Assembly: GCA_022600955.1 (NCBI GenBank)
Contig: JAHZJK010000017.1
Coordinates: 95,366 to 159,365 of the forward strand
Direction of reading: 5' to 3'
Source of the DNA: Gammaproteobacteria bacterium
GTDB taxonomy: Bacteria > Pseudomonadota > Gammaproteobacteria > Steroidobacterales > Woeseiaceae
DNA length: 64,000 nt
Shown: positions 1 to 29,442 of the stretch, one piece after another
Layout: each line of letters opens with the position of its first letter
Position numbering within the stretch: the first letter of the stretch is position 1
Translations under genes and position numbers: made by a program
The notes under the pieces: generated by a model
Seen by the model: the letters and a program-made list of their open reading frames with translations, nothing else
What the model was told of the DNA's origin: nothing
Databases searched by the model: none

Positions 1-1620
1 GTCGCCGGCCACTGTCGCTGCAGTGTCGAGCTCGCCTGTCTTTAGCGTCGGCATTGAAAGATCCAGTCTGAGCACTTTTCCTGTAGAAAGAATGACAGCT
101 CGCTCAATGACGTTTTTAAGCTCGCGAACATTTCCAGGCCAATCGTACGAACGCAGATTAGCTGTCTGTGTTCTTGTAAGGGTCAACACCTCGCGCCCGA
201 AGTCTTTGCATGTCTGCTCGAGAAAGTGCTGCGCCAGCTGCACGATATCATCTCCGCGCTCGCGCAGGGCTGGCACCTCCACGGGAAATACGCTAAGTCG
301 GTAGAACAGGTCTTCGCGGAACTCACCGTCGACGATCAATTGTTCGAGGTTACGGTTTGTCGCCGCAATGATTCGAACATCGACAGAGCGGGTAACATCA
401 TCGCCGACCCGCTCAAACTCGCTTTCCTGCAAAACACGTAACAACTTGCCTTGCAGCTCGACCGGAATTTCGCCGACTTCGTCGAGAAAAATGGTACCGC
501 CATCCGCCAGTTGAAAACGGCCAATGCGATCCTTGTGTGCCCCCGTGAATGCACCTTTGACGTGACCAAAGAACTCGCTTTCGAACAACTCTTTTGGAAT
601 CGACGCGCAGTTCACTTTGACCAGTGGTTTTTGCGCGCGCGGGCTCTGAACATGAATTGCATGCGCTACCAGCTCCTTACCGACACCGGACTCACCCTGG
701 ACCAAAACGCTCGCAGGCGTTTCCGCGACCGCTTCTACCCGTTTCAGCATGCGCCGCAATGCCGGGCTCGTGCCGATAATACGACCGAAGTTCATCGCTA
801 CATATACTTCCTCGCGAAGATAGTCCCGTTCCCGCTCGAGCTCTTCCCGCAGCTGCGCATTTTCAGCCAGCGTGCGCCGTAACTCCTGTTCCGTACGACG
901 ACGTTCCGTGATGTCTTTTGACGCAACCAGCATTCTGTCGACCTGGTTGTTCTCATCACGGTGCGCTATCGATGACATTACAAGATGCAATGTCGTACCG
1001 TCCTTGGCCAGCATCTGACGTTCAAGATTCGTGAATTCGCCATCACTGATCAGTGATTTCAGGCGCGCTTCATCGTAGAACTTACGATCACGAAGACTGA
1101 AAAAGTCGGTTATCGGGCGGCCAACAACTTCATCACGCTTGTAGCCCAGTTTTTCCAACCAGCGATCGGTAACTGTGACAATATTGCCGTCAGCGTCAAC
1201 TGTATGGAGCATTGCTGGCGTCGCTCGGTAGAGCGTGCGGTACTTGAAGTTTGCGCGTGCCTCATCCGAGACTTCTGAATACATCGCGACGGTACGCAAG
1301 TACTCGCCCTCATGGTCGTACTCAACCAACGCACTCGTGAGGCAGTCGACAACCTCGCCGGATTTACTGATAAAGCTGATCGGTTTGTTCTCGAGCTTTC
1401 CGGTGCGGCGCAATGCGGGCCGCAGTTCCTGCTGAATGCGCTCGACGCTGTCCTCGGTCATAAATCTCTCGGGACTTTCGCCGACCATCTCATCGCGCTC
1501 GAACCCAAGACGCGCTAACACCGCGTCATTGACGTCCAGATACACGCCGTTCTCAGCGATAGACGTCGTCATGACAGGCGCTTTGCGAAACAGCCACTGA
1601 TAGTCATCTTGGGAGATCAT
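1..1620 (-). CDS. PAS domain-containing sigma-54-dependent Fis-type transcriptional activator (3' end outside window)
   Basis: Reverse-strand reading frame open from ATG at 1620 to the window edge; begins MISQDDYQWLFRKAPVMTTSIAENG, has two PAS-like segments, then an AAA+ domain with GESGVGKE, GAFTGA and the WPGNVRELKN motif. Confidence 0.93.
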   Translation of the reverse strand, partial: MISQDDYQWLFRKAPVMTTSIAENGVYLDVNDAVLARLGFERDEMVGESPERFMTEDSVERIQQELRPALRRTGKLENKPISFISKSGEVVDCLTSALVEYDHEGEYLRTVAMYSEVSDEARANFKYRTLYRATPAMLHTVDADGNIVTVTDRWLEKLGYKRDEVVGRPITDFFSLRDRKFYDEARLKSLISDGEFTNLERQMLAKDGTTLHLVMSSIAHRDENNQVDRMLVASKDITERRRTEQELRRTLAENAQLREELERERDYLREEVYVAMNFGRIIGTSPALRRMLKRVEAVAETPASVLVQGESGVGKELVAHAIHVQSPRAQKPLVKVNCASIPKELFESEFFGHVKGAFTGAHKDRIGRFQLADGGTIFLDEVGEIPVELQGKLLRVLQESEFERVGDDVTRSVDVRIIAATNRNLEQLIVDGEFREDLFYRLSVFPVEVPALRERGDDIVQLAQHFLEQTCKDFGREVLTLTRTQTANLRSYDWPGNVRELKNVIERAVILSTGKVLRLDLSMPTLKTGELDTAATVAGD

Positions 1621-1685: not shown

Positions 1686-1732
1686 ATACGCGATAATCAT
1701 GTAAGTATATGTTTTTAAAGGTTTTTCAAAGT

Positions 1733-1748
1733 TGGCACGGGTTGTGCA
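1733..1748 (+). promoter_or_regulatory. Sigma-54 (-24/-12) promoter
   Basis: TGGCACGGGTTGTGCA matches the TGGCACR-N4-TTGCA consensus with correct GG/GC spacing and one mismatch. Confidence 0.75.
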
Positions 1749-1821
1749 ATATAGTTGCTGTAACACACTTCAATTGGGCGTGGCACGGAGTGCGACGCGG
1801 CAACACAACAGGAATCGCATC

Positions 1822-1959
1822 ATGAAAAGCAAGTATTTTGAAAACGGACTGGCAGTAATTGGCCTGGTACTCATCTTCGTCGGCGTTACAGCCGCGGCAA
1901 GCACTGCATTGGCTGGCGAAGTCGGCACGGTTGAAATTTATTCATCCGCCCTCAAGTAA
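1822..1959 (+). CDS. 45-aa small hydrophobic/secreted-type protein
   Basis: MKSKYFENGLAVIGLVLIFVGVTAAASTALAGEVGTVEIYSSALK; one N-terminal hydrophobic segment; lies directly downstream of the sigma-54 promoter; GGAAT-type weak SD upstream. Confidence 0.6.
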   Translation: MKSKYFENGLAVIGLVLIFVGVTAAASTALAGEVGTVEIYSSALK

Positions 1960-1977
1960 TCGATTAGTAACCCCCTC

Positions 1978-2192
1978 CGGCGGCTGTCGCCGCAGACCTC
2001 TCTCCCCCCCTGAAGGTCTGATAGATAGCCGCTGGAATTCCGGGCCTTGCCCGGGACGCCAGACGCGAGTCTGGCAAATCGGGCCAGGAAGGCCCGGCGG
2101 CAGCCCCCCTGCCGTAACTCTGAGGGCGCCGAAGACCGCTCCGTGTCGGATCGGCCCGCTGATTCACTCTTTTGAATTCAGTTCTTCGGCGC
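1978..2192 (+). ncRNA. Candidate structured RNA / structured 3' UTR with a string of perfect hairpins and a terminator-like final stem
   Basis: Consecutive inverted repeats: 1978-1992, 1993-2020, 2040-2054, 2059-2074 (CCAGAC-GCGA-GTCTGG), 2080-2096, 2098-2114; then GCGCCGAAGA (2126-2135) pairs with TCTTCGGCGC (2183-2192), followed by TTCTCTTTTTCT. Confidence 0.5.
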
Positions 2193-2453
2193 TTCTCTTT
2201 TTCTATGCGCCTCGGCGCGCTCCCCCAGGTTCTCCGCCGATTTCCGGCTGATCGCTTCACGCAAGCGCTTTAGCCAGCGTCGTGCGAACGCGAATTCGAT
2301 ACTGAGGATTGTTAGCCCTACCGGAATAAGCACAAATGCCGGGCCAGGCGTAACAATCATGACTACGCCAATGGCCAGTACGGTCGCACCGACAACCGCG
2401 ACAACCACACGTCGAGCAGTCTTGTAAGTAAGGTGAAAAGCGCGCTGAATCAC
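2178..2453 (-). CDS. PGPGW-type small transmembrane protein
   Basis: 91 aa with two hydrophobic segments and VTPGPAFVLIPVGL motif. Confidence 0.7.
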   Translation of the reverse strand: MIQRAFHLTYKTARRVVVAVVGATVLAIGVVMIVTPGPAFVLIPVGLTILSIEFAFARRWLKRLREAISRKSAENLGERAEAHRKREAPKN

Positions 2454-27858: not shown

Positions 27859-28089
27859 ACGCCCAATATTACACCGAGTTCGGCCCCGTATATGGGTTTG
27901 CGAACAACAACATACGACGACCAGCGATACGGCGACTTGACAATAAATAATAAAGTACGACAGCTCCATTGCGCGGCCCCGTGGCGTATGCAACGATGCT
28001 CGTGAAATTGAAAAAGGCACAGCTGCTGAAAAGCAGTCTCGCAAAGCCACCGGTCTACGGGTTTGACCTACGACAGCGGAGTTACCAAT

Positions 28090-29442
28090 ATGAAGTCACA
28101 AGGATTTCGTGACACGGGCAAAATCGTTCGACGCCCTGCACGCCCCGGGGTCTACGCACCTACCAATCTGGCTCGCCTGATGCGCTGCATGGACACTGGC
28201 GCCAATCTCGCGTTACCGATCCGCCCGCGCGGTGCTGATACGTCTGCAACCGACTGCAACGTCAGCCCGTCCGGCACCGTTGTGGATACGGCCGGACTCG
28301 ACCGAATCGTGCATATCGATAACTACAACCATACAGTTACGGCAGAAGCCGGCGTGCGCATCGGCGTATTGGTTGCAGCACTTGCGGAACATGGTCTGGA
28401 ACTCACGGGTGTATATGACCAGACCGAGCGCACCCTGGGCGGCGCTTTGGCCGCACCTTGCATGGGACCCGGCATCGGGGGTCAGGCGTCATTTTTTTCC
28501 AGCCAGGTCATTGCGCTGAAAGTTGTAACAGCCAGCGGCAAGGTTATGAAGATCGACGAGACGCAAAAGAATTTGCTCGCGGCATTTCGCCTGAATTACG
28601 GCATGCTCGGCGTGATCTACGAGGTGACCTTGCAGGTCCGACCGATCGCAACGTTCTCAGCCAGTCACCGGAGCATGGACATTGATACGTTCGCAGAAGT
28701 TGCGGACCGTATCTCCAAGGGGAACGTCGGCTTCAAGTTTTACCTGTTGCCATATCGCAATCACGTCTACATTGACGTCAGGCGCTATGAGAAGAAGGCC
28801 GGCAGTGCGTACCAGACCCCTTGGAAAATCAAAGACTGGGGTGAGAGCACGGTGTTACCGAACGTGTTCAAGTCGCTGGGTCGCGTTCTGCCTATCCCTT
28901 CGGTTCGCTACCAGCTGATCGACAGTATTTCTGCAGCGACGCATGGTCTCGTCAACTCCAGGCTCGTCAGAAAAGGTAATAATAATGCTGCGGGCGGGCG
29001 TCACCGCCGCCGCAAGCCGAAGGGCCTCCTGTACTCTACCTGGTGCTTCCCGGCGTCTGATTTCTCGCTGGTCGTGAAAGCCTACGCACGCTTCTGCCGC
29101 GAAACATTTGCACAGACTGCATATCGGTGCGATATGCCAGCGGTCGGATACCGTGTAGCGCAAGACACCAGCGCGTTGTTGTCGCCCTCATTTGACGAGC
29201 CGTTGATCGCATTACAGACCGTTTCGACGCAAAAGAAAGGCTGGGACGATTTTGTTATGCACCTCGCCGAATTCGCAGAAAACTGGGGCGGCACACCCTT
29301 GTTCAATCAGACGCAGGCGGCACGGCCAGAGTATGTCGCGCAGACCTACGGCGGACGCGTAGAGTTTTTTCGCAAGCTCAGAAGGCAGCTTGATCCCGAA
29401 AACCGGCTTCTTACGCCATTCCTGGCTCGAACATTCACCTGA
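28090..29442 (+). CDS. FAD-binding oxidoreductase (D-arabinono-1,4-lactone oxidase type)
   Basis: FAD_binding_4-like region IRPRGADTSATDCN...GVRIGVLVAALAEHGLEL and C-terminal ALO-like region. Confidence 0.8.
   Translation: MKSQGFRDTGKIVRRPARPGVYAPTNLARLMRCMDTGANLALPIRPRGADTSATDCNVSPSGTVVDTAGLDRIVHIDNYNHTVTAEAGVRIGVLVAALAEHGLELTGVYDQTERTLGGALAAPCMGPGIGGQASFFSSQVIALKVVTASGKVMKIDETQKNLLAAFRLNYGMLGVIYEVTLQVRPIATFSASHRSMDIDTFAEVADRISKGNVGFKFYLLPYRNHVYIDVRRYEKKAGSAYQTPWKIKDWGESTVLPNVFKSLGRVLPIPSVRYQLIDSISAATHGLVNSRLVRKGNNNAAGGRHRRRKPKGLLYSTWCFPASDFSLVVKAYARFCRETFAQTAYRCDMPAVGYRVAQDTSALLSPSFDEPLIALQTVSTQKKGWDDFVMHLAEFAENWGGTPLFNQTQAARPEYVAQTYGGRVEFFRKLRRQLDPENRLLTPFLARTFT

Follow-up and report, generated by a model that had tools for sequence, protein, structure and literature searches.

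The sigma-54-dependent small RNAs Qrr, GlmY, and CrcZ are the output of an enhancer-binding protein, and the structured CcsR RNAs carry C-rich loops. In Xanthomonas, the small RNA sX13 presents apical loops of four or five C residues on stable stems; the mRNAs that it represses have G-rich motifs near the start codon, and repression requires its loops as well as these motifs in the targets (PMC3771888). In Caulobacter, an exposed C-rich loop of GsrN pairs with a G-rich mRNA leader (PMC5869019). At the CcaF1–CcsR1-4 locus (Cuckoo RNA or CIN1 locus) of Rhodobacter and other Alphaproteobacteria, a small-protein gene, a structured RNA array, and a terminator belong to one transcript (PMC10253847). 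The Woeseiaceae are a widespread family of marine-sediment bacteria (PMC12175321), for which no small RNAs are described in the literature searched.

Here, a 64,000-nucleotide stretch of a Woeseiaceae genome (the window) was analysed, in which an initial annotation had placed an array of hairpins at 1978-2192, downstream of a sigma-54-driven 45-aa ORF. Comparative data indicate that the plus-strand segment 1960-2203 is probably a conserved structured regulatory RNA of the sigma-54 transcript, with poly-C loops that would pair with G-rich ribosome-binding sites. We conclude that it represents a new, uncatalogued family of sigma-54-controlled 3' UTR or small RNA, whose mode of action is most likely that of sX13 or GsrN. 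The novelty lies in the RNA family, by sequence and structure, and in its setting, a dedicated sigma-54 activator, a small ORF, and a poly-C array, of which no description was found in the literature searched; the mode of action has precedents. The RNA occurs across the family, essentially as a single copy; its controlling activator is clear, and its seed can be tested.

As with Qrr, GlmY, and CrcZ, a small RNA is proposed here to be the output of an enhancer-binding protein; to our knowledge, those three RNAs have neither a poly-C hairpin array nor a small ORF, and they depend on other activators. The likeness to sX13 lies in the C-run apical loops on stable stems, which are present here, and in a gammaproteobacterial lineage rich in TonB-dependent transporters. 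sX13 itself is 115 nt long, adjoins polA, has no small ORF, and is confined to Xanthomonadaceae (PMC3771888), a setting not found at the window locus. In contrast, the window RNA measures about 245 nt, lies 3' of an ORF, has a sigma-54 promoter with a dedicated activator, and adds GGA hairpins. GsrN resembles it in having an exposed C-rich loop as its most conserved part and a family-restricted distribution, but differs in its general-stress sigma control, its single 5' loop, and its activation of katG (PMC5869019). CcaF1–CcsR1-4 likewise places an array of structured RNAs behind a small-protein gene, but it comprises a DUF1127 RNA-binding protein, an RpoH promoter, and four sRNA units (PMC10253847), whereas the window locus has an unrelated signal-peptide-like ORF without a Pfam match, a promoter of the sigma-54 type, and non-repeated hairpins. 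Finally, SisA-D and CrfA of Caulobacter are likewise sRNAs with an anti-Shine-Dalgarno motif, acting on TonB-dependent receptor mRNAs (PMC12559287); their control and setting are different, and no sponge RNA partner was seen for the window RNA.

Results

Control region

The locus has a constant order: a divergent activator gene, three palindromes, a sigma-54 promoter, a small ORF, and the RNA. The features preceding the RNA in the window are as follows.

1-1617, minus strand: sigma-54 activator (Pfam), N-terminal 539 aa of 605 aa; the gene runs past the window edge
1634-1684, unstranded: three palindromic operators, ACGAAATTTCGT / ACGGTTTTTCGC / ACGAAATTCCGT, read directly
1698-1712, plus strand: putative IHF-like element TAAN4-5YTG between operators and promoter, position approximate
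1732-1749, plus strand: predicted sigma-54 promoter TTGGCACGGGTTGTGCAA, GG-N10-GC (-24/-12), from sequence and conserved offset
1822-1959, plus strand: 45-aa ORF with a signal peptide/TM-like N-terminus, from sequence and codon-position bias

The activator combines two PAS domains, an AAA+ domain, and a Fis-type HTH (Pfam Sigma54_activat, 6e-72, and PAS). Its complete 605-aa gene was read from locus L123, and across the first 283 aa orthologues are 50-65% identical. The sigma-54 promoter reported upstream of the ORF was confirmed in the sequence (GG at 1734-1735, GC at 1746-1747), and a -24/-12 element with upstream activator sites, as befits an RpoN promoter, is present. This predicted promoter lies 118-119 bases from the alignment start in all 29 genus loci. 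Palindrome offsets are alike in most of these loci (exactly 19/41/58 in 25), the putative IHF site occurs in 26, and promoter and palindromes are present again in other genera. The palindromes are probable binding sites of the activator, which would also regulate its own gene. A strict double-operator pattern has a single match in the whole genome, which suggests that the RNA transcript is the activator's main output. Transcription would be expected to start near 1759.

Structure of the array

Downstream of the ORF, the plus strand contains a succession of structural elements.

1971-1977, plus strand: 5' C-rich lead CCCCCUC, read directly, resembling the lead in many genus loci
1976-2036, plus strand: P1 stem around the P2 hairpin with its poly-C apical loop (CUCUCUCCCCCCCUGA region), from fold and loop motif
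2038-2056, plus strand: 8-bp hairpin with a CUU loop, arms 2038-2045/2049-2056 (MFE)
2058-2075, plus strand: P3 hairpin, GCGA loop in the window, arms 2058-2064/2069-2075 (MFE and alignment)
2080-2096, plus strand: P4 hairpin, loop AGGAA, arms 2080-2085/2091-2096 (covarying stem)
2097-2115, plus strand: P5 hairpin with a C-run apical loop, GCGGCAG-CCCCC-CUGCCGU, arms 2097-2103/2109-2115 (MFE and alignments)
2122-2203, plus strand: T, a branched terminator-like stem GGCGCCGAAGA...UCUUCGGCGCU with a T-rich tail (MFE and covariation)

The annotated hairpin array is present in the sequence, and its predicted folding is far better than that of shuffled sequences: 1960-2210(+) has an MFE of -130 kcal/mol, compared with -92.8 +/- 4.7 kcal/mol for dinucleotide shuffles (z = -7.9; 0 of 200 as good), and the minus strand of the same segment gives z = -3.0. 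For the P1/P2 region (1971-2039), z is -8.3. Two details of the initial annotation require revision. The local hairpin proposed at 1978-1992 is outcompeted by P1, a 13-bp stem (1976-1988/2024-2036) that encloses P2 (1993-2002/2012-2020). The closing stem at 2126-2135/2183-2192 was correctly described as paired and followed by a T-rich tract, but it is only the base of a longer branched element, which spans 2122 to about 2196 and contains two further hairpins at 2136-2154 and about 2158-2182. In 8 genus loci this internal module is missing, and a plain hairpin with a T tract remains. The T stem, which covaries, and the T tract are evident in the sequence; a simple terminator scanner made no call there because of the long branched loop. 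For the hairpin at 2038-2056, no constant module is recognisable in the UTRs of relatives, and it was not seen as a conserved element.

Dense structure beside genes could also indicate a riboswitch, an attenuator, or another cis element. The array, however, sits downstream of an ORF, ends in a terminator-like stem, and faces a convergent gene, which makes such an element highly improbable. A search of 1700-2250 against Rfam 15, including riboswitches and the Csr/Rsm sRNAs, gave no match at the gathering cut-off or even at E <= 5, and riboswitch and known-RNA readings were discarded on this ground.

Distribution and covariation

The array DNA occurs as a single copy in its own genome. With blastn, the locus was found in 34 of 37 genus genomes, its own included; a 35th match was weak, covered the promoter region only, and came from another family of the order. 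When 27 sequences were aligned with MAFFT (A1), the named structure was paired in 97.6% of cells, compared with no more than 48.9% after shifts of 1-3 columns, a comparison in which the structure is favoured by having been derived from the same 27 sequences. Changes on both sides were found for 11 pairs, a number reached by none of 500 shuffles.

A covariance model built from the array (R1) matched 91 of 107 Woeseiaceae genomes, representing 9 of 12 genera, with one copy per genome except for one genome with two. Its single match among genomes of the order outside the family lies in a metagenome-assembled genome with 6% contamination (G257), which was rejected as a true carrier since the match looks to be on a contaminating contig. 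With a second, broader model (R2), matches among 339 genomes of the class were confined to Woeseiaceae. DNA-pattern matches in two Clostridia contigs (L049 and L058) have no model match and were dismissed as chance. In an alignment of 68 family-wide sequences fitted to the model (A4), 97.1% of cells are paired, and 26 of 35 pairs show double changes (139 cells). The mean folding z over 46 homologous UTRs is -5.0.

The existence of homologues, covariation in both alignments, single copy number, and folding energy support the annotated reading as a structured noncoding RNA or riboregulatory 3' UTR. Perfect GC-rich stems might also be expected of a dispersed REP-like repeat or of chance hairpins, but the single copy, fixed synteny, covariation, and the folding z of the window array refute this explanation, and its probability is practically negligible.

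Poly-C apical loops

The most constant feature of the RNA is not any stem but the single-stranded poly-C apical loops, CUCUCCCCC in P2 and CCCCCC in P5. The initial annotation, although right in recognising a structured RNA, overlooked these loops as a conserved functional feature. The P2 loop reads CUCUCCCC in 33 of the 46 UTRs and contains CUCCCC (CTCCCC) in 42, and the stems vary in almost every species. In P5, the C-run loop is retained where the stem has been rewritten, for example in L030 (GCGATAC-TCCCCCCCA-GTATCGC). The 46 UTRs contain 99 C5+ runs and 5 G5+ runs (40.8 and 16.5, respectively, in shuffles), and the C5+ runs are unpaired with a mean probability of 0.91, compared with 0.38 for all C. 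That stems are replaced while the poly-C seed stays fixed supports the idea, derived from sX13, that C-rich loops are a recurrent way to control G-rich start sites.

In the model proposed here, the PAS-domain activator, responding to a signal that it would sense, binds the three upstream palindromes and, with sigma-54, would switch on a transcript of about 1759-2203, of which 1960-2203(+) would be the 3' part. The RNA would be used either within this whole transcript or once released by processing 3' of the small ORF. The P2 and P5 loops, exposed on rigid stems, would serve as seeds for pairing with G-rich sequences, above all G4-G6 ribosome-binding sites. Pairing would block, and sometimes raise, translation of several mRNAs together, with TBDT mRNAs as the likeliest class.

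The GGA loops of P3 and P4 raise the alternative that the RNA titrates CsrA/RsmA in the manner of RsmY, RsmZ, or CsrB. The P4 loop, AGGAA in the window, conforms to NGGAN in 20 of the 27 genus sequences (counted by eye on A1, as automatic detection misread some genus loops), and P3 loops contain GGA (NGGAN) in most of the genus. However, the P3 loop of the window itself is GCGA, and GGA was present in only 3 of the 11 P4 loops detected automatically outside the genus, whereas poly-C loops persist everywhere. Classic Csr sponges have five or more GGA sites, compared with two at most that are conserved here, and no Csr/Rsm sRNA family of Rfam matches the array. With at most two GGA loops, not conserved beyond the genus, a CsrA sponge was rejected and is very unlikely.

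Instead of pairing with mRNAs, the poly-C loops could bind a protein, for instance Rho or a different C-binding protein, or act as a sponge for a G-rich sRNA. Loops with C runs are suited to binding of this kind, the presence of several on one molecule is suited to titration, and CrfA and SisA of Caulobacter illustrate that sponges exist in such circuits (PMC12559287). Nevertheless, the analysis yielded no pointer to a specific protein or sRNA partner, and known sRNAs with C-rich loops act on G-rich mRNAs (PMC3771888, PMC5869019), so that this role appears quite unlikely compared with mRNA pairing.

Candidate targets

In the genome of the window, a G5 run lies within 25 bases upstream of the start in 13 of 27 TonB-dependent receptor (TBDT) genes, compared with 0 of 40 other genes (p = 8e-7); the 27 genes are those with a picked start, and the start picker accepts GGGG in both gene sets. 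Predicted duplexes with the P2 loop have a median of -12.5 kcal/mol for TBDT genes versus -6.45 kcal/mol for other genes (p = 4e-6), and when the loop was scrambled the difference between the two sets was not significant (p = 0.1). One TBDT start, CAGGGGGAGA, reaches a predicted pairing energy of -18.9 kcal/mol. TBDT mRNAs are thus the most likely target class on these predictions.

G5 TBDT start sites were also found in genomes G128 (8/18), G061 (7/18), and G060 (6/20), of which the latter two, taken as negative controls for targets, carry diverged versions of the locus. Outgroups have them as well: 6 of 18 in G059, which lacks the activator, and fewer, 3 of 19, in G043; outgroups commonly contain GGGGGAGA-ATG matches, too. 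Because G059 has such sites, the genome comparison does not prove TBDT targeting, which was not retained as a proven role once the outgroups had weakened the first enrichment. G-rich start sites may be nothing more than strong ribosome-binding sites of the usual kind.

The genome of the window contains 35 Plug-domain genes. Its TBDT start sites are strikingly G5-rich, a habit that reaches outgroup families.

Small ORF and downstream neighbour

The annotated 45-aa ORF (1822-1959 including the stop) was confirmed and is apparently a reduced form of a family of approximately 90 aa ending ...LDLDIRLIGPTSVKIA. In most other genera the small ORF encodes about 85-100 aa that include a signal-like segment at the N-terminus and finish in a C-terminus like LDLDIRLIGPTSVKIA; between species its length falls from about 95 to 30 aa, and lengths down to 51, 45, and 30 aa occur in the genus of the window. 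Differences between species number 347/201/579 at codon positions 1/2/3. The 45-aa form is therefore under coding constraint, and its protein may for this reason matter besides the RNA. Neither the small ORF nor its longer relatives match a Pfam or NCBIfam family.

It is possible, if doubtful, that the locus as a whole is a one-promoter module, in which the PAS activator would have as its sole output a dual transcript, exported peptide plus poly-C RNA, repressing the TBDT repertoire via G-rich ribosome-binding sites; in some lineages the peptide would have dwindled while the RNA took its place.

Loci L100, L103-L108, and L111-L118 encode a conserved, exported-looking small protein family ending LDLDIRLIGPTSVKIA, without a Pfam match. 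The neighbours of the RNA locus are the sigma-54 activator, a PGPGW protein, and a DLH protein. Next to the RNA, and pointing towards it, lies the PGPGW membrane protein gene (2178-2453, minus strand), an arrangement that many relatives share. In the window, the 3' end of this gene and the 3' arm of the terminator-like stem overlap, and the two transcripts would therefore be antisense at their ends.

Diverged loci

The N-terminal region of the activator was searched in 18 genomes. Matches at 50-65% identity came from three R1-positive genomes and from four that are R1-negative, namely G060, G061, G062, and G037, the last from another family of the order. Within this search it was absent from the sampled R1-negative genus with reduced genomes (g29), from the incomplete genomes G028, G118, G081, and G086, and from the outgroups G042, G047, and G059.

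All four R1-negative loci keep the sigma-54 promoter, the palindromes (degenerate in L356), and the small ORF, followed downstream by poly-C loops on unrelated stems. L351 and L353 have one poly-C hairpin, with loops containing CTCACCCCCCCCGA and CTCTCCCCCCCCCTGA, and L355 has the poly-C loop ACTCCCCCCCCTCCCCCCCT; L356 has several C6-8 loops, one of them in a terminator-like stem, and a weak R2 match (33.7 bits, E = 6e-7). Three of the diverged loci are without most of the array. Because activator, promoter, and poly-C loops are kept in all four, the activator–promoter–poly-C unit appears to predate arrays of the window type.

These loci also bear on the view that the segment is an ordinary 3' UTR with a terminator, whose hairpins would only stabilise and end the mRNA of a small secreted or membrane protein. 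Such a view accords with the terminal stem and T tract and with the coding constraint on the small ORF. Yet the RNA remains conserved although the ORF becomes as short as 30 aa, a terminator has no need to retain multiple unpaired C runs on stems that change, and the poly-C hairpin of L351 and L353 is kept without an evident terminator; this explanation is therefore unlikely.

In L351 and L353, which belong to genus g22, another ORF is next on the same strand, and with no evident terminator the transcript may therefore run into it.

Other RNA element in the window

The only Rfam match in the window is a c-di-GMP-I riboswitch aptamer at 28006-28089 (plus strand, 69.9 bits). It overlaps the automatically called start of an ORF of 459 aa (28063-29442) that resembles FAD-linked oxidases, and the gene therefore probably starts further downstream, under c-di-GMP control.
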